A stretch of 60,313 nt of DNA from Bacteroidota bacterium (GTDB lineage: Bacteria > Bacteroidota > Bacteroidia > Bacteroidales > UBA4417), in assembly GCA_013376995.1 (NCBI GenBank), contig JACAAZ010000020.1, positions 1 through 60,313 on the forward strand, written 5' to 3'. The notes beneath the pieces are model-generated. The model ran no database searches, was not told where the DNA came from, and saw only the letters and a list, made by a program, of their open reading frames with translations. Each line of letters begins with the position of its first letter. Within the stretch, counting starts at the first letter, position 1. This document shows positions 13,735 through 59,525 of this stretch, piece after piece. The position numbers were made by a program, and so were the translations under genes.

Positions 13735-13743
13735 TGAAGTAGT

Positions 13744-14748: not shown

Positions 14749-14750
14749 AT

Positions 14751-15203: not shown

Positions 15204-15236
15204 GGTTTTCGGATAAAATGAAATTGTTATACTTGA

Positions 15237-15642
15237 TTAGTTATTATGTTATTAGTTATTAGTTATTTTGCGATTAGCGATTAGTTATTAGAATGCAGTA
15301 AGCAGTATTCAGCTGATTATGCGTATTTTGTGAGATTTCAATTTCGGACTTCTGTCTTCCGTCTTCTGTTTTCCGACTTCCGGCTTCTAGCTTTCGACTT
15401 CTGTCTTCCTACTTCCTGCTTCCTGCTTCCTGCTTCCTGCTTCCGGCTTCCGACTTCCAAATTCTGTCTTCCGGCTTCCGGCTTTCGACTTCTGTCTTCC
15501 GACTTCCGTCTTCCGGCTTCCGGCTTCCTGCTTCCTGCTTCCTGCTACCTGCTTTCGACTTCTGTCTTCCGACTTCTGTCTTCCGACTTCTGTCTTCCGG
15601 CTTCCGACTTCCGGCTTCCGACTTCCGGCTTCCTACTTCCTT
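15237..15642. repeat. Heptanucleotide tandem array (58 units in phase)
   Basis: From 15349 to 15642, 42 consecutive 7-bp units follow CTTCNNN (CTTCCGG, CTTCCGA, CTTCTGT, CTTCCTG, with rare variants). From 15237 to 15348, 16 further units are in the same phase but of different words (TTAGTTA, ATTAGTT, GATTAGC, AAGCAGT). This fills the 429-bp gap between two minus-strand genes. The last two units overlap the 3' end of the dehydrogenase gene and include its TAG stop (15633-15635). No gene is present apart from that overlap. Confidence 0.93.
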
Positions 15643-18191
15643 TTCATCGGCAACTTTGTCCTTCTAATCCCATCAAACATGTAAAGCGCATTTGCAACTG
15701 CGGCTGCTGTAGGTACAAGTCCTATTTCACCTATACCTTTCGCACCATATGGACCGACAGGATCCGATTCTTCAATTCCTATTACTTCAATTTCAGGAGT
15801 TTGGGAAGCTGTGAGTACACCACAATCACGCAGTTTGGTGCTGACGAGCCTGCTGTTAACCATTGGGAGATCTTCTGTAAGAGCATAACCAACACCCATA
15901 TGCACAGCTCCCTGGATCTGGCCCTCAAAAAGCATAGAGTTCATAATTTTACCAGCATCATGAGCTGCAACTACCTTTTCGATTTCTCCTTTATCATCCA
16001 GGATAACCAGTTGAGCGGCATATCCGTATGAATAATGAGTGATAATCTTCTCAACCTTGGCTCCAGGCTTTGTGGTCCAGTCACAGTAGAATTTTCCTGA
16101 ATATGTTTTTCCTGCCAGCTGAGCTAAAGTATTCGTTTCCAGGTCTTTATTAAGTGAAATACAGGCATCAATTACTGCATTACCAAGAAGCGCAGTAGCC
16201 CTTGAAGAGGTTGTCATGCCGGTAATTAGCTCAGCTTTAGTATCAATCACAACATCAACAATGGAATGATCAATTCCTGTTTCCTGGTGCAAGGTCTGAA
16301 TTGCCATATTTTGAACTCCCTGGCCCATTTCTGTCCATCCATGTTCTATCAGGACTTTACCTGATTCAAGGATATTGATTTTTACATCGCAAAAATCAGC
16401 CATACCATTTCCGACGCCGGAATTTTTGATTCCACAGGCTATTCCTGCATATTTTGCTTTATAGAATTGTTCTTTCAAAGCCTGGAGGCATGCCTTGATT
16501 CCGACACCTTGTTCAAGAACCTGGCCTGTAGCAGTCATTTTCCCAAAATCCAAAGCATTGTCAAACCTGAACTGCCAGCGGTCAAAGCCTCCTTTTTCGC
16601 ACAATTCATCAATACAGGCTTCGAGTGCAAAAGCAACCTGGTTGGCGCCAAATCCCCGCATTGCCCCGGATGGAATATTATTGGTATAAACTGTCAGCGA
16701 TTCAATATCAACATTCGGTACATGATATCCACCGGAAGCATGTCCTGCAACCCTCTCCATTACTTTATTTCCTACAGATGCATATGCTCCGGAATCCCCG
16801 ACAGCTCTGAGTTTAAGCCCGGTCAGAATACCATTTTTATCGCAGGCCAGGCTGATGTCCATCCAAACAGGGTGACGTTTTGGATGCATGATAATGGATT
16901 CTTCCCTGCTAAGATGAAGCTTCACAGGTTTCTTCAGAAGCCATGCAAACAGGGCGACGTGCCCTTGCACAGTCATATCTTCACGACCACCAAATCCACC
17001 ACCGCAGGGAACAAGTGTAACTCTTACCTGTTCCTCATTCAGTCCCAGCAAGGAGGCAACCTGCCTTTGATCAACATAGATTCCTTGCCCCTGGCTGTAA
17101 AGGTGAATGCCGTCACTATCCGGTAAGGCTATGCCTGCTTCGGTTTCAAGGAAGGCATGTTCAATCCGCTGGGTCTCATAAATGCCAGAAACCACATATT
17201 CTGATCTTTCAAAAACGCTTTCAATTGAATCACCCCGGCGAACTATGCAGTTGTCGAGCAGGTTGGATCGGTCAGGATGAACCCGTGGGGAACCATCTTT
17301 CAGTGCATTATGCATATCAGAAACCGGTTCAAGAACTTCATATTCTATCTTGATACTGGTTGCAGCCTTTCTGGCAGTTTCTTCATCAATTGCCACAATA
17401 CCTGCGAGAATATCTCCTATATAACGAGTAGTTTCTCCAACTGCGATCATCAATGGCCAGTCGCTGAATATCAGCCCTGTATAACGCTCACCTGGAACAT
17501 CACCTGAAGTAAATATCCGGATCACTCCTTCAAGTTTTAATGCTTCAGATGTATCAATTGACAGGACCTTTGCCCTGGGATGGTCACTAAAACGAAGTGC
17601 AGAATGCAGCATACCTTCAAAGTGAAGGTCGTTAACAAATTTCCTTTTACCTATTGCTGTTTCAAAGGCTTCATATTTCTTTAAAGGATCACCTATCCCG
17701 GCTTTTGCAATGGATTGGGACGATGAACTTCCCTGACTGAGGTTTTTGAGCGCTTCTTCAATTGCATCAATGATCTTGACATATCCAGTACAACGGCACA
17801 TGTTCAGATTGATAGCTTTGGCTATCTCAGCCCTGCTGGCATTGGGGTTTTCCTGGAACAGGACCTTTGTCCTTGTAATAAGTCCGGGAGTACAAAAACC
17901 ACATTGGACAGCCCCTTTTTCTACATATGCTTCAGCAATTGTTGTCCTGACTTTTTCCGGTATGCCCTCCATGGTTATAATGGTAGCATTTTCAAGGAAC
18001 TTAAGTTTTTGGGTACAGGATAATTTGGCTTTCCCATTAATCTCAACCATACAGGCTCCGCAACTGGCCTGACCTGAGCAACCATCCTTTACGGATGTTA
18101 TGCCTGCAGTCAGGCGGAGGTAATCCAATAAACTTCGGTTTTCATCGCCGGAATATTCAATCTTTTTATCGTTGAGGTAAAAAGTAATCAT
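15633..18191 (-). CDS. xdhD: Fused 2Fe-2S/molybdopterin xanthine dehydrogenase-like (XdhD-type) protein
   Basis: I use the ATG at 18191; an in-frame TTG lies one codon earlier. The 852-residue protein has a plant-type 2Fe-2S cluster (Cys38, 44, 47, 59) and a second 2Fe-2S domain (Cys97, 100, 132, 134). The molybdopterin domains follow, with GGGFGG at 397-402 and the catalytic Glu822 in GAKGIGEIG. This fusion matches the selenium-dependent hydroxylase family (XdhD/Se-dependent XDH), in which Se is a labile cofactor ligand rather than selenocysteine. There is no FAD subunit; YgfK is the likely partner. Its last codons (KRK, stop) lie in the heptamer array. The purine substrate is inferred from context. 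Confidence 0.85.
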   Translation of the reverse strand: MITFYLNDKKIEYSGDENRSLLDYLRLTAGITSVKDGCSGQASCGACMVEINGKAKLSCTQKLKFLENATIITMEGIPEKVRTTIAEAYVEKGAVQCGFCTPGLITRTKVLFQENPNASRAEIAKAINLNMCRCTGYVKIIDAIEEALKNLSQGSSSSQSIAKAGIGDPLKKYEAFETAIGKRKFVNDLHFEGMLHSALRFSDHPRAKVLSIDTSEALKLEGVIRIFTSGDVPGERYTGLIFSDWPLMIAVGETTRYIGDILAGIVAIDEETARKAATSIKIEYEVLEPVSDMHNALKDGSPRVHPDRSNLLDNCIVRRGDSIESVFERSEYVVSGIYETQRIEHAFLETEAGIALPDSDGIHLYSQGQGIYVDQRQVASLLGLNEEQVRVTLVPCGGGFGGREDMTVQGHVALFAWLLKKPVKLHLSREESIIMHPKRHPVWMDISLACDKNGILTGLKLRAVGDSGAYASVGNKVMERVAGHASGGYHVPNVDIESLTVYTNNIPSGAMRGFGANQVAFALEACIDELCEKGGFDRWQFRFDNALDFGKMTATGQVLEQGVGIKACLQALKEQFYKAKYAGIACGIKNSGVGNGMADFCDVKINILESGKVLIEHGWTEMGQGVQNMAIQTLHQETGIDHSIVDVVIDTKAELITGMTTSSRATALLGNAVIDACISLNKDLETNTLAQLAGKTYSGKFYCDWTTKPGAKVEKIITHYSYGYAAQLVILDDKGEIEKVVAAHDAGKIMNSMLFEGQIQGAVHMGVGYALTEDLPMVNSRLVSTKLRDCGVLTASQTPEIEVIGIEESDPVGPYGAKGIGEIGLVPTAAAVANALYMFDGIRRTKLPMKRK

Positions 18192-18205
18192 CAAAATGGA
18201 AGCTT

Positions 18206-19453
18206 TTAGATGGAAAATAATGAGTTGAGTGATGAAAGTTCAGGGGATACCGGCTTTGGAAGGCTTATCCGGGATTGGACAGATTGGAGGTCTTTTAGGC
18301 CGGATCCGGTAAGAAGAACCACATTCCTGGACCCTTCAGCCAACCTGGAGGTAGACTTGAATCTTATATAACCCGCATATGCTGTAGCAGCTGCGGGTTC
18401 TGAAAATATACCGGAAGATCTTGATAAAGATACTGACGCGTCAATTATCTCCTTGTCGCTAACTGAAATAGTCTCTCCTTTGAAAGTCTTAAGATATTTG
18501 ACAGCCATATGATAATTCCGGGGAATATCCACAGAAATTGAATCTGCAATCGTATTGGAAGGATATGCAATGAAACGGGACTGATCCAGATTTCGGATAA
18601 GATTATTGCTGCCTTCAGCCTGAACCGCAACTATAGTTGGCATTTTTTGGATGATCTCCAATTCAAGGAGATCTTCAAAGCCTTTGTAGACTCCGGAAAT
18701 GATCACTCCATCACCCACCGGAACAAAGATCCTGTCAGGCGCTTTTCTTCCAAGCTGTTCATAAATTTCAAATGCTACGGTTTTCTTGCCTTCAATAGTC
18801 AGTGGGTTAAAGGCGGTATTTCGGTTATAAAATCCAAATTGTTCTGAAGCTGCAACACTCAAGTCGAATGCCTGGTCATAGGTTCCGTCAACCGGGATGA
18901 TTCGTGCTCCATACATTACAATCTGGGTCAATTTTGCAATTGGCGCTTTTGCAGGGACGAAAATCATGGATTTTTGACCTTGCGACGCACAAATTCCAGC
19001 AAGAGAAGAACCAGCATTTCCAGTAGAAGCAGCGACAATTGTATCAATGTCATTTTCCCTGGCCCATGCAGAGACAATGGCTGAAGCCCGATCCTTAAAA
19101 GAGAAGGTTGGATTTTGTGAATCATCCTTCAGGAAAACTTCAAATGATTCACCTGTTTCATTGACATCAAATGATTTATAGAGTGGAGTATTGCCAACCC
19201 TGAGCTTTGGTAAACTCTCAAGGGATTGAATAGGCAGGAGTGGCAGAAATTGGTTCTCGACCAGGTACTGAAAACAATCCTTTCCATCCAGGTTATCCAG
19301 GATGGATTTGTATGAATAAATTGTTTTAAGGACTCCCTTAGGAGGCTGATCTGCCTTGTTGTTGGCATTGCAGGCAGGGCAGAGGTAACGAATGATCCCT
19401 GAGGAATATTCCTCACCACAGTCATTGCACCGGTAATGAAATATTTTCTTCAC
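18206..19453 (-). CDS. Threonine-synthase-like PLP enzyme with N-terminal zinc ribbon
   Basis: The start is a GTG; it is preferred because it keeps an N-terminal zinc ribbon (Cys9, 12, 25, 28). The rest of the 415 residues is fold-type-II PLP enzyme: NTPLYK, FSFKDRAS with the likely Schiff-base Lys120, and STGNAGSS as the phosphate/substrate loop. The nearest annotated type is threonine synthase, but the operon (14 bp before the dehydrogenase, 21 bp after another PLP gene) argues for a catabolic beta-elimination or ammonia-lyase role. E. coli has the diaminopropionate ammonia-lyase YgeX at the comparable place; this protein is not a clear YgeX. True housekeeping ThrC cannot be excluded. Confidence 0.75.
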   Translation of the reverse strand: MKKIFHYRCNDCGEEYSSGIIRYLCPACNANNKADQPPKGVLKTIYSYKSILDNLDGKDCFQYLVENQFLPLLPIQSLESLPKLRVGNTPLYKSFDVNETGESFEVFLKDDSQNPTFSFKDRASAIVSAWARENDIDTIVAASTGNAGSSLAGICASQGQKSMIFVPAKAPIAKLTQIVMYGARIIPVDGTYDQAFDLSVAASEQFGFYNRNTAFNPLTIEGKKTVAFEIYEQLGRKAPDRIFVPVGDGVIISGVYKGFEDLLELEIIQKMPTIVAVQAEGSNNLIRNLDQSRFIAYPSNTIADSISVDIPRNYHMAVKYLKTFKGETISVSDKEIIDASVSLSRSSGIFSEPAAATAYAGYIRFKSTSRLAEGSRNVVLLTGSGLKDLQSVQSRISLPKPVSPELSSLNSLFSI

Positions 19454-19474
19454 AAGACCGAAATTACTGTAAAT

Positions 19475-20953
19475 CTACAACTTATTCAATAACCCGGTTT
19501 TTTCGTTGAACTCGTTGATCAGTTCATCCCAACGGGCAGGCTGACTAAACAGTTTAGGCCAAATATGCCTGTCGTCCCACAATTGACGCAGATCTTCAAC
19601 ATCTTTTCCCTGTTGTTCGATCCAGGTGAAATACTTTAGGTTGTGAATAGCCTTCTGATCCTGGTAGGTAAGATCCTTCATTGTATCAGAGCGGGTGCCG
19701 AGCATACATTTTTCATGATCACGTGCAGCTTGCAAATTGGAGTAAGATCCACGTTCTTCCTTCAATTCTTCAATCCTGGAGCCATACATTTCAGCGGAGT
19801 CGGTAGCTATTGTAAAAATGATATCTTCCGAAGTCATGTCAAAATGTTTTGCAGTCTTTATAGCTGAAAGAATATTGCCAATCCCGGAGATACCGATCAT
19901 ATTCAGATTAGCAACGAGTTCCTGATCATTGCCATTGGAGGTTAGGTATTCTTTACCATCCTTTTCATTGAATAACCTGAGCAGTCGCATGCAGTCTTCA
20001 TCGTCGATGGCAGTCACAACGTTGGTGTTCTTAACATTATGGATCCAGGGAACGTGCTTGTCACCAATACCTTCAATTCGATGCCCGCCAAAACCATTTT
20101 GAAGAAGGGTGGGGCACTGCAATGCTTCAGATGCAACAACCTTTAAATGAGGGAACTTTGTCCTCAGGTAATCTCCGGCAGCAATGGTTCCAGCTGATCC
20201 TGTAGCTGAAATGTAAGCTGACATCTGAGCGTCTTTTCCAGCTACAAGGTGAAGAGCTTCTTCGATGGCATGGCCGGTTACTTCGTAATGCCAGCAGCTA
20301 TTTCCGAACTCTTCGAACTGGTTGAAAATGACACAATCTTTGCGGGTTCGTTTTATTTCCCAGCATTTATCATATATCTCTTTTACATTTGATTCACATC
20401 CGGGGGTAGCAATTACTTCAGCACCAATCTCTTCGAGCCATGCAAACCTTTCCCTGCTCATTTCTTCAGGGAGAATAGCAACAGCCGTAACATCCATGAG
20501 GTAGGAATCAAAAGCACCGCCACGACAATAATTTCCGGTTGAAGGCCAAACTGCTTTATGATATGTGGGATCAAATTCTCCTGTTATGATCCTGGGTGTC
20601 AGGCATCCATATGCTGCACCTACTTTATGTGCACCCGTTGGAAACCATTTTCCAAGCATAACAACTATTCGGGCATCGATACCGGTAAGTGATTTCGGAA
20701 GCTCAATATAATTAGGCTTTCCATAGAGCCCGCCTTTGGCTTTAGGCTCATTTTTCCAGGTTATCCGGAAAAGATTTAGAGGATGTAAGTCCCATAATCC
20801 AATGTTTTTTAATTGATCCTTGATCTTTCCGGGGATCAGTTCCGGGTTTTGCATCTGGGCGAATGTTGGAAGAATAATTCCTTTTTCTCGATAATGGTTA
20901 ATGGCCTTCTGCAGAACTTCGCCATTGACAACTTTGTCAGTAATTGGGATCAT
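19475..20953 (-). CDS. Cysteine-synthase-like fold-type-II PLP enzyme, long form
   Basis: This 492-residue protein has the fold-type-II pattern PTGAHKVGAAYG, with Lys110 as the likely PLP lysine, and STGNYCRGGAFDS (138-150) as the substrate loop. It is about 150 residues longer than cysteine synthase, with extra N- and C-terminal segments. I do not recognise a characterised family. Its position directly before the threonine-synthase-like gene suggests lyase chemistry on an amino-acid intermediate such as diaminopropionate, but that is inference. A 202-bp spacer separates it from the MORN gene. Confidence 0.75.
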   Translation of the reverse strand: MIPITDKVVNGEVLQKAINHYREKGIILPTFAQMQNPELIPGKIKDQLKNIGLWDLHPLNLFRITWKNEPKAKGGLYGKPNYIELPKSLTGIDARIVVMLGKWFPTGAHKVGAAYGCLTPRIITGEFDPTYHKAVWPSTGNYCRGGAFDSYLMDVTAVAILPEEMSRERFAWLEEIGAEVIATPGCESNVKEIYDKCWEIKRTRKDCVIFNQFEEFGNSCWHYEVTGHAIEEALHLVAGKDAQMSAYISATGSAGTIAAGDYLRTKFPHLKVVASEALQCPTLLQNGFGGHRIEGIGDKHVPWIHNVKNTNVVTAIDDEDCMRLLRLFNEKDGKEYLTSNGNDQELVANLNMIGISGIGNILSAIKTAKHFDMTSEDIIFTIATDSAEMYGSRIEELKEERGSYSNLQAARDHEKCMLGTRSDTMKDLTYQDQKAIHNLKYFTWIEQQGKDVEDLRQLWDDRHIWPKLFSQPARWDELINEFNEKTGLLNKL

Positions 20954-21155
20954 AGATTATAAGTATGGTTATTGCCGCCAAAGGCGGATTGGTTTGTGGT
21001 TGAATGTTAGATTTATGCCTGTAATTAAATCGTTTTAAATATTCATTTGATGTTTTAACTCATAGAATTCAGATTGCAACTGTATTAGGTAAATTTCATT
21101 CATCATTCCATCTTCCTGTTCAGGCTTCACAATGCGTTGCAACACCTTAAGTGTA

Positions 21156-21854
21156 TTAATTATTTGAAAGGAATACTTCGTATTTGCCTTGTTGCAGTAT
21201 ATCAAAATCAAAATTACATTGTCGTTCAATACCATTCACCAATATTGTATAATGGATGGTACAATTTAGAGGACAATTATAATTCTGAATTACTACTTTG
21301 AGGTTCTGGTCGATCCGATAGCCAGAGGACAGTTTAATGGCCAAATCCCTGGGGATATATTTCTTCATAGCCTTCTCAAAGGAAATCTCAATAATAGCTT
21401 CTTTCCCGGCAACTTTCGTAATGGATTGGTTCTCAATGCCGCTCAGATTTGTTACCCTATAGTCTTCAGCAGGTTTCGACAGTCCGCTGTATTCGCCATC
21501 CTTCCAGAAACCCTTGAGTAATGTGACCTTATCATTCAATTTGTACTTAAATTCACCTTCACCGTTCTTAAGCCCCATATTCCAGTTGCCGGTAAAAACA
21601 TTTCCATTTTTGTATTTGTAGATACCCTTTCCATGTGGCAATCCCTGGTGAAACATACCTTTATAGGTATCTTCACCAATTGCTGTCCCTTTTCCCTCAG
21701 CAAGTCCGTCTAGACAATCACCCTTGTATGTTGTGGAGATCTCTTTCATTAAAACTTTGCAGGAATTTTCACCCTGCTGTGAAAAGCATGTTCCGCTGAA
21801 AACAAATGTTAGCAGGGTAATCATCACCCAGCCTTTAAAGTGCAAATTATTCAT
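21156..21854 (-). CDS. Exported MORN-repeat protein
   Basis: The 232-residue product has a hydrophobic N-terminus ending near CFSQQ (signal peptide) followed by about three MORN repeats (residues about 48-118; pattern YKGMFHQGLPHGKG, FTGNWNMGLKNGEG). The C-terminal 110 residues are a beta-rich domain of no known family. MORN repeats usually mediate protein or lipid contact. It lies 51 bp after ygfK on the same strand, so it is within the transcript, though unrelated to known members of the pathway. An out-of-frame open stretch continues past its stop (to about 21035); I could not decide whether a frame change has shortened the gene. Confidence 0.7.
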   Translation of the reverse strand: MNNLHFKGWVMITLLTFVFSGTCFSQQGENSCKVLMKEISTTYKGDCLDGLAEGKGTAIGEDTYKGMFHQGLPHGKGIYKYKNGNVFTGNWNMGLKNGEGEFKYKLNDKVTLLKGFWKDGEYSGLSKPAEDYRVTNLSGIENQSITKVAGKEAIIEISFEKAMKKYIPRDLAIKLSSGYRIDQNLKVVIQNYNCPLNCTIHYTILVNGIERQCNFDFDILQQGKYEVFLSNN

Positions 21855-21905
21855 AATTGGCAGATATTCAGTTCTAAAAAATCTATAGATTTCATCCGGA
21901 AAATA

Positions 21906-24900
21906 TTAAATTGTCAGGCTCAGGGCCCCTTTCATTAAAATACTCATTTCGGCGGCAAAGGTGAACTGACATTCTTTAACGCAAGGAGCCAGGAATTGTA
22001 CATCCACCAAACTCAAATCCGCAGGACTGATTTTTGCTTTCACCTGGTCAGTTTCATAAATATAGGTGTTGTCGGCTAGTGTAAGAGTGCGGATACTTTC
22101 ATGATGCTTATAGATGAGAACATCACGGCCAGGAAGCCTGCTTAGGAAATAACCTTCACCTTCCTGATTCAGCGACTCTATAGACAGGCATAGTGCAGGT
22201 TTATCTTTATATGGCTTTCCGCTTGATGGACAGAATGTTACGCAATTTTCACATTCGTTGCACAAATCCCGGATGTTCAGAACCTGGTATGACTGGCTTA
22301 TGGTGAATTCTTTGTCTTCAGCAAACCCGATTGTACCATCAGCAAGTAAAACAGCCTTCTTTAATTGGTATGAAACAGGTTCAACTGAATAACTATAATT
22401 GGCCAGGTTAGGGCACACACTCACACAGACATTGCAAATTTCATCACAGTACAAGCAACGGCTTGCTTCTTTTACGGCTTCAGAATAGGTGAATGGAGAC
22501 ATTACCAGGTTGAAATTCCTCCGGTCTGAAATATCCGTTTCAAGTGGGGAAATGCCGAAATCACGAATTGCTTTCTTCTTGAGTAGTTCCGGTATCACAA
22601 GTTGTTTCTTATTCCTTTTAACTGAAGGTGATTCATTCAGGATTTCAGTTATCATTTCAGCTGCTGCCAGCCTCCCATCCGCGATTGCATTAATTGCCGT
22701 TGCGGCACCCCGCAGAGCATCTCCACCAATATAAACACCATCAAGGCGAGTCTTATAACTACCCGGAACAGTTTCCAGTAATTGCCCATCCATGAAATCA
22801 ATGGCAAGCTTTTGTCCAATTGCCGGAATAATGGTATCGCATGGAATGCTGAACTCAGATCCGGGTACCTTAACCGGCACAGGGCGGCCATCGTTGCCTT
22901 TCATGGCAAGTACTGTAAGCGAGCATTCCAGTGAATCTACTTTACCATCCGAAGAATTAATTCTTTCTGGACTGGTGAGTTCGATGATCTGGATACCTTC
23001 AGCGATAACAGCTTCTATTTCACCTTTATCAGCAGGCATCTCCTTGACCGTACGGCGATATACAATGGTGACTGTTCCATCTTCTCCTACAAGCCGGAAA
23101 GCAGTCCTGGCAGCATCCATGGCTGTATTTCCACCACCAATGATAATTACATTTCTACCTGTAAAGGAGGAATGGTTCTCTTTAACTTCAAACAAGAAAG
23201 TAAGCGGATCAAGAACTCCTTTGGAAGAGATCCCTTCAAGGTTCATCTTGGCAGCTTCCTGGGCACCTGCACCAAGGAACACAACATCATGTCTTTTCCT
23301 GATATCTGCAAAATTCTCTTGGTTAACAAGGTAATTATCTTTCAATGCTATTCCTGTCTGAAGGATACGTTGTATGTCTTTTTCAATAGCCTCGTCAGTA
23401 AGACGGAAAGATGGAATTGCAGCAGAGACCATTCCTCCGCTGAATTGTTTTTTCTCAAATATGTTGACTTCAAATCCTGCCTTTCTAAGGAACCAGGCAC
23501 AGGACAGTCCTGCCGGCCCTGCACCAATGATAGCGGCTTTTTTTCCAGCAGAGATTGGATGCATTTCACTCTTAGCAGAACCATTTTCTGCATTGTACCT
23601 TTTAATCTCCCGGATATGCAAAGCCTCGTCATAATTAATGCGAGTGCATTTCAACTGGCAGGGGTGATCACACACCATACCGGTAACGGATGGGAAGGGG
23701 TTTGTTTCAAATATGGTTTCCAGTGCCGCACCAAGGCTTCCATTAGCTGTCTCATACATATACTGGGGTATTCCCTGGTGAGTAGGGCAGGTGTCCTCAC
23801 AAGGTGCATGAATACAATCAAAGTAATTCAGTTGCCTTGAAGTTTTTATGTTCTTTTCAGTAAAGGAAGTGTTCCTATAGAGTTCATTATCAGCTACTCT
23901 GTCTGCGTACCTGTTTAGATTTAGTAAGGCTGCTGAATTTACATCCAGGTTACTTTCGCCGGACCTGAAGCAGATGTAATCGTCAATAGTTGCTGAACTT
24001 CCTGATTTAAATTCATTCTTCAGCACATCCATATATTGCCAGAGCCTTCCATACCCGCCAGGTTTCAGCAAATCGCTGCAAACTGTTACTGGTTTAAGTC
24101 CACAGGAAATCACTTCATGGATGTTGAAACAGTCTACTCCTGCGGAGAATGATATATCCAGGGTGCCCCTAAAATGGTTTTGCAGTTTCCTGGCAACACG
24201 AATACTGATAGGGTGCAGGGCACGACCGCTCATGTAATTCATGCTCTCCTTATCACTGAATACCTTGCGGATATTCTTGCTTTCGAGCGTATTTGTGAGT
24301 TTTACACTAAATTGTAATCCTTGTTCAACAGATGCCCTGCTGAGCATTTCAATGATACTCACGGCATCAGGGTATTTTAGGTCATGTTCAAAAGCAATAT
24401 CAGGGACCTCGGTATTGAAACCAAGTTGTTTGTTCAGAAGATCCCTTAGCTCATCCTGGCCAAGAAGAGTTGGATTTAACTTGATGGTAGTATGTAGTTT
24501 CTTTTCCCGGATGAGGTACATTCCTATTTTACCAATTTCATCAGGCGGGCACCCATGCATGGTGCTAAGTGTAATATGATCTGAAATACAGCCCGGGATT
24601 TGAATGGAATCGATTTCCGGGTATAAGAAACGAATACTTTCTTGGGCTGCTTTGAGTTCTTCACTGCAATCGTGCATTTTAGAAAAGAACCATTGGACAT
24701 TTTCCTGCAGGATCCCATCCATGTTATATCCAATACTCATATTGAATAAAGTGCCGAATGGTCCCTCAAAATTCAACTCCTTCCTGAGAATATGGATAAC
24801 TATCCATGCATTCAGGTATTCGCTAAAGGATTGTTTGATTTTCAATTCCTGCGACCACTCACAGTTATAACCTTCATCCTGCATGTCAATACAGGGTTTG

Positions 24901-25184
24901 GAAACTTCCAGTTCATCAAGTGTCTGTATGGTTTTGAGTTCAATGTAACGGGCACCGCATAGCCAGGCTGCTATAATATTGACAGACAATTGTGTATGAG
25001 GTCCGGCAGCTACACCGACAGGCGTTTCAAGCACTTTTCCATAGCGCTCCATCCTGAATGGATCAGAAGGAGAAGGAATGAAAAACAGCTTGTTTGGAAT
25101 TCCGAGAAAACGATCTTTGCGTATTTCGCTCAAAGTAAGGGCCAGAAGCCTTGGAAGTGGAATGGGTAAGAATTTATCCGACAC
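21906..25184 (-). CDS. ygfK: YgfK-type iron-sulfur flavoprotein (putative selenate reductase subunit)
   Basis: The start is a GTG. The 1092-residue protein has an N-terminal dihydroorotate-dehydrogenase-like barrel (about 1-400). A GltD-like part follows with N-terminal Cys ligands (457, 462, 466, 505, 509, 513), an FAD loop GAGPAG (554-559) and a dinucleotide loop GGGNTA (683-688). Two C-terminal ferredoxin-like clusters (Cys910, 913, 917, 920, 924; Cys975, 978, 981, 985) complete it. YgfK is a marker of selenium-dependent hydroxylase loci and is thought to move electrons or reduce a substrate. Here it probably replaces the missing FAD subunit of the dehydrogenase. It is the first gene of the minus-strand run. 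Confidence 0.92.
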   Translation of the reverse strand: MSDKFLPIPLPRLLALTLSEIRKDRFLGIPNKLFFIPSPSDPFRMERYGKVLETPVGVAAGPHTQLSVNIIAAWLCGARYIELKTIQTLDELEVSKPCIDMQDEGYNCEWSQELKIKQSFSEYLNAWIVIHILRKELNFEGPFGTLFNMSIGYNMDGILQENVQWFFSKMHDCSEELKAAQESIRFLYPEIDSIQIPGCISDHITLSTMHGCPPDEIGKIGMYLIREKKLHTTIKLNPTLLGQDELRDLLNKQLGFNTEVPDIAFEHDLKYPDAVSIIEMLSRASVEQGLQFSVKLTNTLESKNIRKVFSDKESMNYMSGRALHPISIRVARKLQNHFRGTLDISFSAGVDCFNIHEVISCGLKPVTVCSDLLKPGGYGRLWQYMDVLKNEFKSGSSATIDDYICFRSGESNLDVNSAALLNLNRYADRVADNELYRNTSFTEKNIKTSRQLNYFDCIHAPCEDTCPTHQGIPQYMYETANGSLGAALETIFETNPFPSVTGMVCDHPCQLKCTRINYDEALHIREIKRYNAENGSAKSEMHPISAGKKAAIIGAGPAGLSCAWFLRKAGFEVNIFEKKQFSGGMVSAAIPSFRLTDEAIEKDIQRILQTGIALKDNYLVNQENFADIRKRHDVVFLGAGAQEAAKMNLEGISSKGVLDPLTFLFEVKENHSSFTGRNVIIIGGGNTAMDAARTAFRLVGEDGTVTIVYRRTVKEMPADKGEIEAVIAEGIQIIELTSPERINSSDGKVDSLECSLTVLAMKGNDGRPVPVKVPGSEFSIPCDTIIPAIGQKLAIDFMDGQLLETVPGSYKTRLDGVYIGGDALRGAATAINAIADGRLAAAEMITEILNESPSVKRNKKQLVIPELLKKKAIRDFGISPLETDISDRRNFNLVMSPFTYSEAVKEASRCLYCDEICNVCVSVCPNLANYSYSVEPVSYQLKKAVLLADGTIGFAEDKEFTISQSYQVLNIRDLCNECENCVTFCPSSGKPYKDKPALCLSIESLNQEGEGYFLSRLPGRDVLIYKHHESIRTLTLADNTYIYETDQVKAKISPADLSLVDVQFLAPCVKECQFTFAAEMSILMKGALSLTI

Positions 25185-53025: not shown

Positions 53026-53031
53026 TTGGAG

Positions 53032-53622
53032 ATGCAAGTTACCGGGATTATTTTAGCGGGAGGCAAAAGCTCCAGGATGGGGTATGAAAAAGGCCTTGTA
53101 GAGTTGGGTGGAAAGACGCTAATGCAGATCGCTATTGAGAATCTTTCAAGTGTTTGCGACAGGATTCTGATTAGTTCCAATTCGAAAGTTTTTGTAGACT
53201 ATGACTTTGAAGTCATCCCAGATGAGATTCCGGACATCGGTCCTATGGGAGGGATTTACAGTGCTTTAAAGCGCAGTGAAACTGAAGCCAATCTTGTTCT
53301 TTCCGTCGATCTTCCATTTGTGAACCCACAATTGTTCAGTTATTTGATAAAGTCGCAAGATAATTATTTGGCCGCTGTTCCATACAGCGGTAATGATCAT
53401 TATGAGCCGCTTTGCGCTTGCTATTCTTTAAAACTGCTTCCCTTTATTGCCAACAGAATTAGCATTGGAATTTATAAACTTCCGGATCTGTTCAGGGAAA
53501 TTGCTATCAATCAATTGACTATAAATGAGGAACTGGATTTTTTTCATCCTTCTATTTTTTTCAACATTAACACTCCTGATGATTTGATATCAGCGGAAAA
53601 CATGATCAATTCCCGGTCATGA
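53032..53622 (+). CDS. mobA: MobA molybdenum cofactor guanylyltransferase
   Basis: The ATG at 53032 is chosen; a TTG two codons earlier abuts the small gene. The 196-residue protein has LAGGKSSRMGYEK (8-20), DIGPMGGIYSAL and SVDLPF, a standard MobA pattern. MobA joins GMP to molybdopterin to make the bis-MGD cofactor used by DMSO-reductase-family enzymes. No such enzyme is in the window. It is distinct from MocA at 25339. Confidence 0.9.
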   Translation: MQVTGIILAGGKSSRMGYEKGLVELGGKTLMQIAIENLSSVCDRILISSNSKVFVDYDFEVIPDEIPDIGPMGGIYSALKRSETEANLVLSVDLPFVNPQLFSYLIKSQDNYLAAVPYSGNDHYEPLCACYSLKLLPFIANRISIGIYKLPDLFREIAINQLTINEELDFFHPSIFFNINTPDDLISAENMINSRS

Positions 53623-53689
53623 CTATCTGGTAAGAAAAGGATATTATTGTATTATTGCAGTATGATTCTCCGAGTCATTGCTTCTAAGG

Positions 53690-53826
53690 GACATTCCTAT
53701 CGAAGTTCTGACCGATGGGTTGCCCGGGAAACTGGTCAGCCTCCCGAAATAATGTTGAATTGGAAAGGAGAAAAGGATACAGTTGATTACAGCCTTGGGT
53801 TGGATAATACTGCTGTATCCTTTCCC
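53690..53826 (+). other. Possible structured RNA/leader before the TauE gene
   Basis: AAAGGATACAG (53772-53782) pairs with CTGTATCCTTT (53813-53823), and a second small stem CGGGA/TCCCG lies upstream (53725-53745). An overlapping 59-codon frame exists but looks non-coding. I could not match a known riboswitch. Confidence 0.3.
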
Positions 53827-53844
53827 CGGTTAATCCGGTGAAGA

Positions 53845-54576
53845 ATGAATTATGATTTTCTTTTGGTGGCCTGCCTGATGGTGGTAGCCTTCCTTTATTC
53901 ATCTGTAGGTCACGGAGGTGCCAGCGGATACCTTGCAATTATGGCTTTGTTCGGTATTCAGCCTGACCTCATGAAATCCAGTGCCCTGGTTCTGAATCTT
54001 TTCGTTGCAGGTGCAGCATTTTATTCTTTTTACCGGCAGGGTTATTTCCGATGGAAACTTCTGTGGCCATTCCTGATAACATCGATGCCAGCTGCCTTTT
54101 TAGGGGCCAGGTTTCACCTTGATCCTGTTGTATACAAGACGCTTTTAGGCTTATTTCTTCTCTTTGCAGCATTACGGCTGTTCTTCAGACTGGGAAGTGA
54201 TTCTGATGAATTATGTGAAATCCCGCTTTGGTTTGGATTGATCACCGGGTTGCTGATTGGATTTTTATCCGGACTAATTGGAATAGGCGGTGGCATATTA
54301 TTGACTCCCATTTTATTACTTGGGAGATTTGCCCGGGTTAGGGAAGCTTCAGCTGTTTCAGCTTTATTCATTTTACTTAACTCATCAACCGGAATAGCAG
54401 GTTTGGCAACTAAAGGACTTCATATTACAACAGAACTCACCGTTTGGATTGCTGCAACTTTTATTGCCGGCATGTTGGGTTCATTTTCCGGGAGTCATCA
54501 TTTTTCAGACTCCGGCCTCCGTAAGGTTCTGTCCTTTATACTGTTATTCGCAACACTGAAGCTTTTCCTTATATGA
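53845..54576 (+). CDS. TauE/SafE-family membrane permease
   Basis: The 243-residue protein has about eight membrane helices in two similar halves, with family motifs SVGHGGASGY near residue 18 and GLIGIGGGILLTPILL near 143. TauE/SafE proteins export sulfite, sulfoacetate or related anions. It is followed 30 bp later by the ECF-like/NTPase gene, so they are likely cotranscribed. A link to sulfur metabolism (SQR nearby) or to a molybdenum or tungsten oxyanion is inference. Confidence 0.88.
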   Translation: MNYDFLLVACLMVVAFLYSSVGHGGASGYLAIMALFGIQPDLMKSSALVLNLFVAGAAFYSFYRQGYFRWKLLWPFLITSMPAAFLGARFHLDPVVYKTLLGLFLLFAALRLFFRLGSDSDELCEIPLWFGLITGLLIGFLSGLIGIGGGILLTPILLLGRFARVREASAVSALFILLNSSTGIAGLATKGLHITTELTVWIAATFIAGMLGSFSGSHHFSDSGLRKVLSFILLFATLKLFLI

Positions 54577-54606: not shown

Positions 54607-56358
54607 ATGAAAGTCATTACCCCAACCTATCCAAACTCTGCCTGGCTTAAAGCTTCAGTTATAGCCAGCTATTGGGCTACGATTGAAATCCTTGCGGGTA
54701 GCATTCTCCATAACTTTCGGATCCCGGTTTCAGGAACCATCCTTTCGTTTACAGCAGTTATTCTGATGACTTCCTTTCTTTACCGCTGGAAAACAAATGG
54801 CATAATCTGGAGGGCAGGTCTTGTATGTGCATTGCTTAAATCCATCTCTCCCTCTGGTGTAATATTTGGGCCTATGATCGGGATCTTTTCTGAGGCTTTG
54901 CTAATGGAGTTTTTTGTTTGGATTTTTGGTAAGAATTTGCTGGGATATATGCTGGGAGGCGCTTTCGCTGTGCTAAGTGCCCTGATACATAAGTTTATTA
55001 GCCTGATCATTATTTATGGATTTGACTTTGTGAAGATATTGGATGCGCTTTACCATTATGCAGTCAAACAAATAGGATTGTCATCTTTACCGGCTTCTAC
55101 CGTTGTGTACATAATTATCGGAATTTATTCAGTTACCGGGATGATTGCAGCTATACTTGGCTTCATTGTAGGTAAAAAGTCCATGGAACAAAAGCTGGAT
55201 CTGGGTTTATTGCCAGAATTCAAGTTCAATAAGGAAAGCCAGTTTTTGAGCAGGAACAAGCAACAGCACTATTCAGTAAGCCTCCTGCTTATCAATTTAT
55301 CTATTATGATCCTGATACTGTTCTTGCTGGAAAGGGGGTTGGTGCTTGCAAGTAGTATCCTTTCCATATTCTTTCTATTCTTTATTACAAGGAGGTACCG
55401 GAACTCAATGCGGTACCTAAAGAAGCCCACATTCTGGATACAGTTGATAGGTATTACGCTCATTGCATCATTATTGCTGAATGGACTGGTAGAAGGGGTT
55501 TACTTCAGCAGGAAAGGATTAGAAGTCGGCTTGCTCATGAATTACCGGGCAGTAATAGTAATAATGGGATTTGTTGCGATTAGTGCAGAACTGAGGAATC
55601 CATTGATCAGGACTATATCATTCAAAGCAGGATTTTCAATGGTATACCAATCTGTGAACCTGGCATTCTCAGCGCTTCCCGAACTAATTAAATTCTTTCC
55701 CGGGTCACGGAAAATGCTGTTTAAGCCAGTTTCAACCCTTGCTGCTATTCTTCCTTACTCTGAAGAGATCATTCAATCATTTGAAAAATCAATGTCTGAA
55801 AGACCTTCCATTATTATTATTTCCGGTGAGAAACAAGAAGGAAAAACGACTTTTGCGAATGAACTTGCCGGGAATTTGTTAAAAAAAGGAATCCGTCTCT
55901 CGGGTTTCCTGGCAAAAGGAGTGCATGAATGTGAGAAGCGCATTGGATTCGACCTGGTTGACCTCAAAAGTGGAATTAATTATCCCCTCAGCAGGTTAAA
56001 AAAAGGATCGGATGATACAACATATAAACGGTTTGATTTCAATCAGGAAAGCCTGGAATTTGGCCGGAGACTGATTGATCCTGAAAGCCTTCAGGATGTG
56101 CAATTGGTTTTTATTGATGAGGTTGGGCCTATGGAATTGAAAAATGAGGGCTGGTCAAATTCTATATATAAATTGTGCTCTATGGGAAATATAATCCAGG
56201 TATGGACAGTCAGGAGGGCTATGGTGGAACAGGCTGCGGGCACCTGGCCGGTTGGAGCAGTTTATGTATTTGATATTAAAGATGAGAAACCAGAAGATGC
56301 AGGGAATTTCATTGTTAATCAAACACGGGGACGGATGTCAAAAGCAGCTTCGGAATAA
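54607..56358 (+). CDS. ECF-like membrane protein fused to THEP1-type NTPase
   Basis: This 583-residue protein has two membrane parts and a soluble end. Residues about 1-190 form six or so helices like an ECF transporter S component. Residues 225-390 have further helices with the pattern NYRAVIVIMGF ... LRNP, similar to the T component. Residues 400-575 are a THEP1/DUF2478-type P-loop NTPase with GEKQEGKTT (407-415) and FIDEVGPME (502-510). I know of no described protein of this arrangement. It stands beside mobA and TauE. It may couple uptake of a cofactor or metal to NTP hydrolysis. The substrate is unknown. Confidence 0.7.
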   Translation: MKVITPTYPNSAWLKASVIASYWATIEILAGSILHNFRIPVSGTILSFTAVILMTSFLYRWKTNGIIWRAGLVCALLKSISPSGVIFGPMIGIFSEALLMEFFVWIFGKNLLGYMLGGAFAVLSALIHKFISLIIIYGFDFVKILDALYHYAVKQIGLSSLPASTVVYIIIGIYSVTGMIAAILGFIVGKKSMEQKLDLGLLPEFKFNKESQFLSRNKQQHYSVSLLLINLSIMILILFLLERGLVLASSILSIFFLFFITRRYRNSMRYLKKPTFWIQLIGITLIASLLLNGLVEGVYFSRKGLEVGLLMNYRAVIVIMGFVAISAELRNPLIRTISFKAGFSMVYQSVNLAFSALPELIKFFPGSRKMLFKPVSTLAAILPYSEEIIQSFEKSMSERPSIIIISGEKQEGKTTFANELAGNLLKKGIRLSGFLAKGVHECEKRIGFDLVDLKSGINYPLSRLKKGSDDTTYKRFDFNQESLEFGRRLIDPESLQDVQLVFIDEVGPMELKNEGWSNSIYKLCSMGNIIQVWTVRRAMVEQAAGTWPVGAVYVFDIKDEKPEDAGNFIVNQTRGRMSKAASE

Positions 56359-56360: not shown

Positions 56361-59060
56361 TTACCAGGCTGGCTGTAAACATTTGGAAGTGCAACTCGCT
56401 TTGATTGCATAAAAATCATCAAGGCTATGAAGCATTACCTTACTGCCTGGTTGATGACAAGTGAGGCAGGCACCAACCATTAGTATCTTTTTTTGCTCTT
56501 CCACATTGAAAGGACGGTAACCATAACGTGTTGATGATAAATCTTTTCTATTCAGGAGAAACCCTGTCCAGGCATCTTCCGGAAGGCCATCGTTAACATT
56601 ATTGGCATACGCAGCCTGGAAATGCCATTTGCCAGTTGCAGAATAATTTAATGTACCACGTCCATATCCAATAGCCAAAGGGTCGTTGTGACAGGATTTA
56701 CAGCTCCGGCTTTCGCGGGTGATGGTATGAGCTGAAGCCGACGCATAAAGTCGATTGAAATTCTTTCTTCCAGTGCCACCCAAAGAAGTGGGGTCAATCG
56801 TGAGGATCATACCAGGCACAAAGGTTTGAATCTTCCCTGGAGTTCCTATTTGCGCATTAACACCCAGAACAGGTAGCTCAGCCAGGTATTTGCCGGTATA
56901 TTCCACCCAACTTCCTTTAGTCGGTTTATTGGTAAGCATATCAAAGCCTTTCGACTGTTTTTCATAGCTGTTATGGCAACCGAGGCAATTAGGAGCCCAG
57001 GAAGTATGACAGGCTTCACAACTGAGTCGGATATGAGCTTTCCCCTGGAAGCATTTTGTTGACTGGCGCTTAGAAAGCAGTTCACTTCCTGAAAGTTTTG
57101 TCAACAGGCTCACCTGACCTTCTTTACTCACACGAGTATTAACAATCAGACGATTTTCCTTTAGAGTTGCTACCATTTGAAATCCAGACAAAGGGTAATT
57201 CCTAAGCCAGGCTATTAGTTGAGTTTCCCTGTCAGCTTCTTGAATAGAGATTGACCTTACAATTCCATTTCCAGGATGGCAATCTATACATTGAACCTTA
57301 ACCGCTTCTTCCTTATGGGAATAGGAGGTGTTATCCCCCATGAGTTCATAGGAAGAATGACAATCAATACAGGCCATGCCCTTTTCATGATGTATATCTG
57401 CTTTAATAAACTCAAAAACTCTACCATCAGGGATTTGCAGGTATTTACCATTGCCAGGGATACTCTTTAAAGCAGTTTCATTCCAGCCCTCATAATTCAT
57501 CGAAATTCTTCCTGAACGGCTGTGGCAGCTTCTACATTTATCGTTGCTGATTGCAAGATTAACAGAAGGATGGATCTTCGGAGTGATTTCATTTCCAGGT
57601 TTTATTCTTTGATACTTTTCCAGGTCCTTCTGAGCATCTTTAGAGTAAGAGAGATGACATGCATTGCAACCACCCCCTCTTTCGAGCCAGAAAGAAGTCC
57701 CTGCATGAGTTTTGTCATTTCCAAGATGGCAGCCAATGCAAAGGTTTCGCAAATGTTTATCAGCTGGAGAATGAGTAATATCATTAGCCTGGGTATGTCC
57801 ATTGAGGGAATGTGACTCCCCGAAAACAAAGCGGTCAACCGAGATCATGCCTGAAAGCGAAGCCATGAGGCTGCCTTTTACCCGTTCGACGATATGAGGG
57901 TGGCAATTAGCAGAACCACAGGTTCTTCCTGCATTTGAGAGATTTCCAGGGATTAATTCCATCCCTTTATGTGCAGTGTTCTTATTCAACGAATATGGAT
58001 CTCCAAGGTGGCAGGAGTAACAGCCTGCAAAATTTTCAGAATGGCTGATACTTAAACCTTTCATTCCCGTATGGCATACGAGGCAGGCCTCCGGTTGTGC
58101 CTGGACCGTTGGGATTTGCTTGGTTGTAATGGAATGAAAATCAACAGGTCTGAGTACAAATGCAGATTGAATGCCAGAGTTGGAATCCCATGGCCATTGC
58201 CATTTCCAATCTTCCCCCCTGAAAAATAAACCAATGAGTGTAAGGACCAGGTAGATCAATGCAACAATAAGAAGCAATGGGCGAACTAACCGCTTAGCTT
58301 TTTCTTGCAAACCCGGAAGAAAATAGATGATAGCGAGTGACAAGAGAAATATTAGCATGACTAACCATGGATGACTAACCCAATGCAACAATTCCTGGAC
58401 TCCAACAAAATACCAAGGGCCTTTCATTACCGGCTCAGTCGAAGTACCCAATGGGGCCCTGAAAAACCATGACATTAATACAATTGCAATGAAGACAATT
58501 AGGAAGGTTTTCAAATTTACCCAGATAGTTTTGACGTGATCATAAACTGCCATGAACAGGATTAAGGTTGCAGTGGCAATGTGATGAACATAAAGCAGTT
58601 GGAAATTATCTTCCTTTCCTATAAATGTTTGCCTTAATAGTCCACCAGGGAATGGCACACTATCCAGCATGGCTGACAATATTCTTTTTGCCTGCAATGC
58701 ATCACTGTCAGCTTTCAGGATAAAACCGGAAATCATAGCATAAGCAAGGAAGATCAAGGCAATTGTTAGCCGGAACCAGACAGCTTTTTTCTGGATGTTT
58801 ATCTCACGGCCCTGGCGGATGTGGTCATAGGTATGCAGCACAGTAAAAATCAGGAATAGCTGTGCAGTCCAATAGTGAAGGTTGCGAGAGAATGAAGCTG
58901 CCGGGTTGAGGATAATTAAGCTTGCAACAGAAATAAACGGCTTACCAACATCATAGGGAATTGCCAGGAGTATCCCAGATAATACACAAATGAGCAGGGA
59001 AGCTATTGCTATCCATCCATAGGTGTCAAAATGAAGGAATTTCCTGATTTGAAGAAGCAA
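56361..59060 (-). CDS. Cytochrome b fused to a twelve-haem c-type domain
   Basis: The start is a TTG; no ATG is available upstream in frame. The 899-residue protein begins with a bc1/b6-type cytochrome b domain, with His pairs 62/76 and 160/175 and a GPWYFVGVQELLHW motif (214-227) at the place of PEWY. Two more helices follow. From about residue 325 there are twelve haem c motifs: eleven CxxCH and one CX4CH (CGSANCH, 381-387). The protein would oxidise menaquinol and pass electrons to the periplasmic haem chain. Geobacter CbcL is a functional analogue, but has a different b domain. The gene is convergent with the ECF-like gene. Confidence 0.85.
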   Translation of the reverse strand: MLLQIRKFLHFDTYGWIAIASLLICVLSGILLAIPYDVGKPFISVASLIILNPAASFSRNLHYWTAQLFLIFTVLHTYDHIRQGREINIQKKAVWFRLTIALIFLAYAMISGFILKADSDALQAKRILSAMLDSVPFPGGLLRQTFIGKEDNFQLLYVHHIATATLILFMAVYDHVKTIWVNLKTFLIVFIAIVLMSWFFRAPLGTSTEPVMKGPWYFVGVQELLHWVSHPWLVMLIFLLSLAIIYFLPGLQEKAKRLVRPLLLIVALIYLVLTLIGLFFRGEDWKWQWPWDSNSGIQSAFVLRPVDFHSITTKQIPTVQAQPEACLVCHTGMKGLSISHSENFAGCYSCHLGDPYSLNKNTAHKGMELIPGNLSNAGRTCGSANCHPHIVERVKGSLMASLSGMISVDRFVFGESHSLNGHTQANDITHSPADKHLRNLCIGCHLGNDKTHAGTSFWLERGGGCNACHLSYSKDAQKDLEKYQRIKPGNEITPKIHPSVNLAISNDKCRSCHSRSGRISMNYEGWNETALKSIPGNGKYLQIPDGRVFEFIKADIHHEKGMACIDCHSSYELMGDNTSYSHKEEAVKVQCIDCHPGNGIVRSISIQEADRETQLIAWLRNYPLSGFQMVATLKENRLIVNTRVSKEGQVSLLTKLSGSELLSKRQSTKCFQGKAHIRLSCEACHTSWAPNCLGCHNSYEKQSKGFDMLTNKPTKGSWVEYTGKYLAELPVLGVNAQIGTPGKIQTFVPGMILTIDPTSLGGTGRKNFNRLYASASAHTITRESRSCKSCHNDPLAIGYGRGTLNYSATGKWHFQAAYANNVNDGLPEDAWTGFLLNRKDLSSTRYGYRPFNVEEQKKILMVGACLTCHQPGSKVMLHSLDDFYAIKASCTSKCLQPAW

Positions 59061-59096: not shown

Positions 59097-59525
59097 TTAA
59101 CCGGCCAGTATCTTTTGAATAGAAGCTTTTTCGTTATCGGTAAGTGTATCCATCTGGCTTAGTGCTGTCTGGATCTTATTTTTGAAATTCCAGCAGGTCA
59201 TCTGCCGCAATGAAAGCCTCCTTGCAAATTCGTAAGTCGATATTTCCTCCTGGCTTTTGCTAACATTGTAGGCTATGTAAAATGCTTTACTAACCGGGAA
59301 TTTGCAGTTGTGAAATATAGTACCTGTCGTTGCAGATTCTTCTGTTTTGCATTTAGTGCAACGCCTGGAAAAAGAGGTTTTACCCGGGCAATAGTTCGTG
59401 TTTCCGCATTTGCGGCATGTAAATCCTTCAGCCCATTTAAGATCGGCTAGAAATTCAAGGCATTTCTCGTCACTGCCTAGTAGTTCCTCGATTTTCTCAG
59501 GTGCGATTGCCTCTTTAAAGATCAT
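59097..59525 (-). CDS. Stand-alone transposase-type zinc-ribbon protein
   Basis: The 142-residue protein has two CxxC zinc ribbon pairs (FTCRKCGN, RRCTKCKT) followed by SATTGTIFHNCKFPVSKAFYIAY and a helical region ending LSLRQMTCWNFKNKI. This matches the N-terminal domain of IS1595-type transposases, but the catalytic DDE domain is absent and no inverted repeats are seen. It is a short complete protein common in Bacteroidota, most likely a domesticated DNA-binding protein. It is divergent from osmC with shared repeats between. Confidence 0.75.
   Translation of the reverse strand: MIFKEAIAPEKIEELLGSDEKCLEFLADLKWAEGFTCRKCGNTNYCPGKTSFSRRCTKCKTEESATTGTIFHNCKFPVSKAFYIAYNVSKSQEEISTYEFARRLSLRQMTCWNFKNKIQTALSQMDTLTDNEKASIQKILAG

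Follow-up and report, generated by a model that had tools for sequence, protein, structure and literature searches.

A candidate uptake system for a ready-made molybdenum or tungsten pterin cofactor in Bacteroidota, with S-like, T-like and THEP1-type NTPase modules joined in one chain

Energy-coupling factor (ECF) transporters consist of an S component, EcfT and two ATP-binding cassette (ABC) ATPases, and vitamin B12 is taken up by BtuB-BtuFCD, which combines a receptor with an inner-membrane importer under riboswitch control. Known members of the THEP1/NTPCR family of nucleoside triphosphatases (NTPases; Pfam NTPase_1) are, to our knowledge, soluble proteins. ModABC, WtpABC and TupABC serve molybdenum and tungsten enzymes by carrying the oxyanion, and they need the pathway that makes the molybdenum cofactor (Moco); molybdate transporters may follow Moco riboswitches, according to passages of PMC2408646. 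Here we describe a gene at 54607..56358 (+) of a 60,313-nt stretch, positions 1 to 60,313 of contig JACAAZ010000020.1 of a Bacteroidota bacterium (GCA_013376995.1; the whole stretch is called the window, and its genome G000), which encodes an S-like module, a T-like module and a THEP1-type NTPase in a single protein. This protein is likely, in our view, to represent a modular system, here joined into one chain, by which the finished molybdenum or tungsten pterin cofactor is taken up.

The system resembles ECF transporters in the fold of its S-like module, in a T-like module with weak similarity to CbiQ, in its modular gene order and in the vitamin-like substrate expected. It differs from them in that a THEP1-type NTPase is fused or co-encoded, that the chain contains no ABC ATPase, that a TonB-dependent receptor is often present and that the match to EcfT is unconfirmed. 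Like BtuB-BtuFCD it would couple a BtuB-like receptor to inner-membrane import of a metal cofactor that is scarce, and a riboswitch would again govern expression, whereas its inner-membrane part is ECF-like and its riboswitch is of the Moco class. Like the oxyanion transporters it would serve molybdenum and tungsten enzymes, but many of the genomes that have it show neither MoaC nor MoeA. Its NTPase has the Pfam domain, the Walker motifs and the nearest solved structure of THEP1/NTPCR, and differs in being joined to membrane modules. We know of no ECF-like transporter with a non-ABC NTPase, and one would be new.

The open reading frame (ORF) of the fusion has an ATG start and encodes 583 aa. 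Its AlphaFold model, predicted with an alignment of relatives, had a predicted local distance difference test score (pLDDT) of 89.1 and a predicted template-modelling score (pTM) of 0.85, and the S-T region reached 89.5 and 0.88. Membrane-type helices occupied residues 11-194 and 224-328 of the full-chain model, followed by more helices and then by the NTPase fold, so that one chain with two hydrophobic segments and a P-loop domain, as proposed in an earlier note on this DNA, was confirmed. The Walker A (GEKQEGKTT, residues 407-415, nt 55825-55851) and Walker B (FIDEVGPME, residues 502-510, nt 56110-56136) motifs named in that note were present at these positions, and the mobA and TauE/SafE genes that it had placed directly upstream were recovered as ORFs with Pfam matches. 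The same architecture was found again in other genomes by searches of the phylum and of public genomes, and the ORF is thus not a chance one. Comparison of the model with a viral fold library gave no match.

Structure prediction supported a six-helix fold like that of an ECF S component for the S-like module (residues 7-198, 54625..55200, +; six transmembrane helices). The only ECF protein among the best 50 Foldseek rows of either model, S-T or whole chain, was 5edl, titled in the PDB as the S-component of an ECF transporter (probability 1.00, TM to target 0.57 and 0.59), with E-values of 0.34 and 0.11 that are not significant alone. Major facilitator superfamily (MFS) proteins ranked above it by E-value for the S-T model, but their TM was near 0.15, and these rows were judged non-informative. 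In a Pfam scan open to E 10, 6 of 19 S-family members matched ABC_cobalt (best E 4e-4) and 4 of 19 matched Trep_Strep (best E 2e-4), while the window's own S module matched neither. We take ABC_cobalt, Trep_Strep and 5edl to represent ECF S families, and 5edl and PF09819 to be YkoE. The S profile had no match among PDB sequences. Residues E27, G31, L34, H35, P40, G43, K78 and G138 were kept in at least 21 of 22 homologues. By the helix boundaries of the S-T model, they would lie about where helices 1, 3 and 5 reach the periplasm if, as we assumed, the N-terminus is cytoplasmic. ECF S components bind their ligands around the periplasmic helix ends. As a separate observation, a diverged stand-alone S-like paralogue occurs near a Nap locus (L125 11852-12436 and L126 12582-13274; S-profile E 8e-27 and 3e-24), in L125 after cytochrome b and multiheme cytochrome genes, with neither a T nor an NTPase match adjoining.

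The second module (residues 222-399, 55270..55803, +) was modelled as four transmembrane helices followed by further helices, which are probably cytosolic. Its full-length profile matched 12 proteins, and shorter T regions were picked out solely by inspecting the alignment; since a full-length alignment placed T-only rows over the NTPase, S-T was aligned apart. M-x-x-R-A was invariant across the 12 aligned sequences, and CbiQ/EcfT was the most frequent of the weak matches, with 4 of 12 members and a best E of 0.49. No EcfT appeared among the best 50 Foldseek rows of either search, and the T profile, run against the PDB, hit no ECF protein and had as its best match RPB_PLP3_R6, apparently a designed protein. 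A reduced EcfT is a plausible identity for this module, which we therefore label T-like and not T. The suggestion of ECF-like S and T segments in the earlier note was thus supported for S, by the 5edl fold and the weak ECF-S Pfam matches in the family, and left at plausible for T.

The NTPase module (residues 396-570, 55792..56316, +; R536 in addition to the Walker motifs) matched Pfam NTPase_1 (PF03266) over residues 403-538 with E 9e-20 and 71.6 bits, where the cut-off is 23.9; the ATPase in the chain of the fusion is NTPase_1 and not ABC. DUF2478 stayed under its cut-off (17.8 against 22.3 bits), and the membrane segments of the window protein alone had no significant Pfam or NCBIfam match. 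The nearest solved structure was the human NTPase 2i3b (phmmer E 6e-6, Foldseek E 2e-6). Positions G407, G412, K413, G433, D504, E505, E510 and G515 were present in all 22 homologues, and F478, G507, L509 (M in the window) and R536 in 21 of 22.

When 395 genomes of the phylum were searched uniformly, 28 matched the system, and a degenerate-pattern scan of public genomes added a single relative, a full-length protein in a Bacteroidales metagenome-assembled genome (L031). Gene arrangements were read with profiles of the three modules from 34 fetched regions and L031. The S-T-NTPase order of the window was found in L031-L033, and an NTPase-S-short T order in L044, L046, L048 and L085. S-short T proteins had a neighbouring NTPase gene in L042, L043, L047, L083, L084, L086-L089 and L093, and none beside them in L038, L045, L050, L051, L082 and L090. 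Separate genes for S, T and a TonB-dependent receptor were found in L034-L037, L039-L041 and L049, five of these eight loci also having an NTPase gene. The receptors form a protein cluster spanning the eight loci; plug and beta-barrel Pfam domains were identified in two, and BtuB was the nearest among solved structures to that of L041. The window operon has no TonB-dependent receptor gene. NTPase_1 matched in 27 of the 28 system genomes at E 1e-3 and exceeded the cut-off in 25, the gene being fused in 7 genomes, adjacent to S in 10, within the operon in 5 and elsewhere in 3, with 3 not over the cut-off. S and NTPase distances were correlated over 22 pairs (r 0.61, reached in 0 of 2000 permutations), to which shared genome ancestry also contributes.

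The locus is linked to Moco by a riboswitch and by MobA. A molybdenum/tungsten cofactor riboswitch aptamer lies at 53656..53786 (+), between mobA and the TauE gene (Rfam RF01055, 60.4 bits against a gathering threshold of 36). A stable hairpin at 53767..53825 (+) overlaps its 3' end and is a candidate expression platform (53760-53850 folds at -29.0 kcal/mol, z -3.7). Since no T-run follows the hairpin, translational control is more likely, and this suggests that the riboswitch acts on translation. Scanning 47 sources of about 0.8 Mb, namely the window and 46 of 48 large loci (L091 and L095 were left out), gave ten RF01055 matches: that of the window, one in every locus of the type with separate S, T and receptor genes (eight of eight, at 53-97 bits, seven being from genomes without detected MoaC), and one upstream of a moaA-moaC operon in G148 (L126, moaA assigned by Pfam). 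In L036 a carboxymuconolactone-decarboxylase-like (CMD-like) gene stands between riboswitch and S. The P3 stem was absent in the window and absent or only a few bases long in all nine riboswitches of system operons, and RNAs lacking P3 are largely associated with the tungsten cofactor by Regulski et al. in passages of PMC2408646, so that the tungsten cofactor stays a candidate ligand. The passages also place Moco riboswitches ahead of molybdate transporters, Moco synthesis and Moco-using proteins, and in the main text of that article, as far as it was covered, TonB does not occur.

Some further genes were observed near these riboswitches. At L126 1998-4152 (G148), the Moco riboswitch is followed by a CMD-like gene, a chromate-transporter-family gene and moaA, and the second of these genes may encode a molybdate or tungstate carrier of the CHR family. 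The CMD-like protein of about 105 aa recurs beside S genes, moeA-mobA or a moa operon and may be an unrecognised Moco-linked gene (L042 9658-9969 and L122 8587-8901, assigned by Pfam; L118 7633-7953, L115 9739-10056, L116 7619-7939 and L126 2322-2639, assigned by BLAST).

The mobA-like gene, for a molybdenum cofactor guanylyltransferase, lies at 53026..53622 (+) of the window (Pfam NTP_transf_3 E 3e-35; NCBIfam MobA model E 2e-43, 148 bits, slightly under the curated cut-off of 164). Of the 30 genomes having both mobA and the system, 13 had them no more than 15 kb apart, where about 0.26 would be expected if genomes are taken as 4 Mb; in G014, G132, G000 and G357 the two are within 4 kb. Molybdoenzyme genes occur among the neighbours. 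For example, NapA-NapG-NapH-like genes are found in L041, PhsA/Psr-like genes with NrfC- and NrfD-like partners and sulfur-transport and rhodanese genes in L043, a xanthine dehydrogenase in L038 and NarI in L031, and one cluster of molybdoenzyme catalytic subunits was represented in 15 of the 36 sources compared (35 loci and the window). One member, a Psr-like protein, is encoded some 7 kb past the fusion gene on the contig from which the window comes (L095 5203-7497). The window also encodes another Moco user, a selenium-dependent xanthine dehydrogenase (15633..18194, -; TIGR03311, 880 bits against a cut-off of 830), together with an SsnA-like protein and a YgfK whose 834.4 bits are just under the curated cut-off of 835.3. 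The region 11141-25184, with this dehydrogenase, the SsnA-like amidohydrolase, the YgfK-like protein and PALP enzymes, resembles selenium-dependent molybdenum hydroxylase clusters. The earlier note had guessed at a molybdenum or sulfur species; molybdenum is strongly supported and can be sharpened to the cofactor itself, while sulfur is unsupported as a general theme. The TauE/SafE family permease gene of the window (53845..54576, +; Pfam TauE E 2e-33), which is 3' of the riboswitch and ends 30 bases 5' of the fusion gene, had no TauE-like counterpart beside S in the fetched loci. A single partial and weak TauE match was found in L043, at a distance from S, and sulfur-transport and rhodanese genes do appear in neighbouring Psr-type operons.

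The distribution of the system was compared with the capacity to make the cofactor by a single uniform search of all 395 genomes. Genomes with PF01568 at E <=1e-12 or PF20256 at E <=1e-40 were scored as having a molybdoenzyme, and gene absence in draft genomes is uncertain. MoaC, one of the enzymes that define Moco synthesis, was detected in 229 of 395 genomes overall, whereas just 9 of the 28 genomes with the system had it. The system was detected in 16 of 26 genomes with a molybdoenzyme but no MoaC match, compared with 9 of 172 having both, 0 of 57 with MoaC but no molybdoenzyme and 3 of 140 with neither. Fisher's test comparing the first two classes gave p 5e-11 with genome relatedness ignored, and between 4e-11 and 8e-11 under three pairs of the thresholds on which the classes depend. 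An extra profile search of 72 chosen genomes had seven matches, and adding them makes the table non-uniform. These genomes comprised 16 without MoaC with molybdoenzyme matches at looser thresholds and none in the uniform search (4 found), 6 borderline ones without MoaC (0 found), 22 with MoaC from mostly the same families (3 found), 18 others without MoaC (0 found) and 10 others with MoaC (0 found). Added to molybdoenzyme genomes without MoaC were G116, G310 and G385, to those with MoaC G035, G236 and G294, and to those with neither G204, bringing the counts to 19 of 26, 12 of 172 and 4 of 140.

With these additions, MoeA was found in 3 and MobA (E 1e-12) in 18 of 23 system genomes without MoaC, compared with 12 of 12 for each in those with MoaC, and in 0 of 10 MoaC-negative genomes without molybdoenzyme matches. 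MobA was scored at E <=1e-12 as none of 62 genomes and one of 14 controls reached the curated cut-off of TIGR02665. The dimethyl sulfoxide (DMSO) reductase family typically needs molybdopterin guanine dinucleotide (MGD), and MobA was kept in all 13 system genomes without MoaC that have a clear enzyme of this family (PF01568 at E <=1e-12). MobA was undetected in five of the 23, of which four have no strong match other than one of xanthine-dehydrogenase type, and G204 has PF01568 at 3e-10. G124 and G132 are single contigs of 99% completeness with no MoaC or MoeA match, yet they have molybdoenzymes and MobA. Two other markers were set aside. MoaE, found in 8 of 62 genomes, was undetected in 10 of 12 system genomes with MoaC and so does not discriminate; as these ten have MoaC and MoeA (e.g. 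G000, G074, G188), their molybdopterin (MPT) synthase may be divergent or replaced. ModA was uninformative, with no match over the cut-off in the 28 system genomes and weak ones in G000, G047 and G393.

The architecture, the S-like fold, the complete NTPase motifs, the linkage to the riboswitch and MobA, and the occurrence without detectable MoaC and MoeA are observed. As MoaC and MoeA are not found but MobA is kept, we infer import after metal insertion, that is, of Mo-MPT or its tungsten form. The inward direction and the NTPase as motor are further inferences. In the full form, a BtuB-like TonB-dependent receptor would pass the cofactor across the outer membrane, the S module would bind it through the conserved residues at the periplasmic helix ends described above, and the T module and NTPase would drive its release into the cytoplasm. 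MobA could then add guanosine monophosphate to the imported cofactor to give (bis-)MGD, and the riboswitch ahead of the operon would shut expression off when the cofactor is plentiful. We hold it to be possible rather than probable that these parts form an undescribed transporter class, in which a THEP1-type NTPase, not an ABC ATPase, powers an ECF-like S-T pair, and in which this pair, served by a TonB-dependent receptor of its own and controlled by a Moco riboswitch, imports the intact molybdenum or tungsten cofactor.

Several observations weigh against cofactor import by such a system. The window's own genome can make Moco, with MoaA-, MoaC-, MoeA- and MogA-type genes together at G000:C24, and the system is thus not essential there. 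In family f18 (at least 25 members), the system was found in 6 of 8 molybdoenzyme genomes with MoaC and in 10 of 13 without it; this family shows no link to MoaC, so that the association comes mostly from contrasts outside it. A xanthine-dehydrogenase-type protein is encoded in G009, G176, G322 and G269, in which MoaC, MoeA, MobA and the system were all undetected; these genomes would need another cofactor source, or such proteins may be independent of molybdenum. Three molybdoenzyme genomes without MoaC (G221, G362, G370) have no detected system, which may be due to assembly gaps; they belong to family f19, many members of which have MoaC, and two of the three are 84-87% complete. Conversely, G019, G224, G326 and G204 have the system but fall under the molybdoenzyme thresholds, and three system genomes without MoaC keep MoeA (G006, G051, G353). 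No RF01055 match over the gathering threshold was found in the other S-T-NTPase fusions (L031-L033) or in the scanned loci with S-T and NTPase or NTPase-S-T genes. Three genomes (G070, G132, G267) have the system with no NTPase_1 match over the cut-off, and in L044 and L118 the module is directly preceded by same-strand ABC-transporter genes, which for L118 were assigned by BLAST similarity alone.

The last two points bear most on what powers transport. The NTPase could instead act on the cofactor after import, as a soluble MobB-like protein or kinase, with S-T powered otherwise, e.g. by ABC ATPases, and we rate this only a little short of an even chance. THEP1 enzymes are slow NTPases, weak MobB matches were obtained, and NTPase_1 is unlinked in three system genomes besides the three below the cut-off. 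On the other side, 22 of 28 genomes have the NTPase either fused or encoded in the operon, and it can come before or after S-T; Walker A, Walker B and R536 are conserved. The earlier proposal that this NTPase family replaces the ABC ATPases thus gains from the linkage to the modules, and loses from the genomes without NTPase_1 and from the ABC genes of L044 and L118, which leave some probability to an ABC motor. The fusion system, with no ABC ATPase in its chain, is not filed as an ECF transporter. No ABC family was found among the four scanned window neighbours of the fusion gene. Apart from L044 and L118, no ABC ATPase was noticed adjoining a module, where most neighbours were unscanned against the family library and no genome-wide ABC search was made. 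At L118 6550-10649 (G116), the S gene is the last in a same-strand run with an ABC-ATPase-like gene (BLAST to that of L044) and a 451-aa protein with a marginal NTPase-profile match (E 0.0015), possibly an ABC-powered or a different variant.

Import of a metal-free precursor, cyclic pyranopterin monophosphate or MPT, would agree with the three MoaC-negative system genomes that keep MoeA; we think it unlikely, since MoeA, the known metal insertase, was not found in the other 20 of 23 and MobA, whose step follows metal insertion, is still present in 18. Import of inorganic molybdate or tungstate, with the Moco link reflecting only metal demand, would fit both the Moco riboswitches that precede molybdate transporters (PMC2408646, passages) and the lack of ModA over the cut-off in all 28 system genomes. 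We regard this as quite unlikely, given the 23 system genomes without detectable MoaC, 20 of them also without MoeA, and the ECF-S fold and BtuB-like receptor, a pattern that would suit vitamin-sized ligands. The metal alone is useless without MPT. It is very unlikely that the molybdoenzyme homologues of MoaC-negative genomes are dead or independent of molybdenum and that the system has another task, although such forms are one option proposed for orphan molybdoproteins in passages of PMC6147048. G124, which has no MoaC match, encodes a full-length NapA-like protein with NapG- and NapH-like partners, none of which reaches its curated equivalog cut-off. The PhsA-like protein of G124, also full-length, shares 67% identity with the one of G074, which has MoaC; MobA accompanies every clear DMSO-reductase-family enzyme as given above, and seven MoaC-negative system genomes have a Moco-class riboswitch. 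A cofactor sensor or exporter, for which the NTPase could be a signalling switch and direction is unreadable from sequence, is scarcely credible, as the TonB-dependent receptors of eight operons point inward and the system is enriched where MoaC is not found.

Two other features were noted downstream of the fusion gene. Convergent with it, 56361-59060 (-) encodes an 899-aa protein with a cytochrome-b-like membrane part fused to a multi-CXXCH cytochrome, and 59097-59525 (-) is an ORF of 142 aa with an IS1595-type transposase zinc ribbon. A plasmid comparison gave no match.

Externally made Moco is used by C. elegans, which obtains it from the diet (PMC9793310); the parallel is with an animal, the passages name no transporter, and the word "transporter" is absent from the main text as far as covered. 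The stem "molybd" is likewise absent from the covered part of a review of TonB-dependent transporters (PMC11658791). No bacterial Moco importer was named in the titles and abstract openings among the matches listed, in a literature that excludes most subscription journals. A 2018 survey of almost 5,900 organisms found several hundred with a partial molybdenum trait, mostly molybdoproteins without the complete Moco pathway, and suggests, in the passages covered, unknown biosynthetic components or molybdenum-independent forms as explanations (PMC6147048). If our reading is true, a cofactor importer would be a third answer to these orphan molybdoproteins and would explain how many such bacteria live without making the cofactor. 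A labile cofactor would then be a nutrient shared between bacteria, as B12 is, which would be relevant to nitrate, sulfur and purine metabolism in anaerobic communities.

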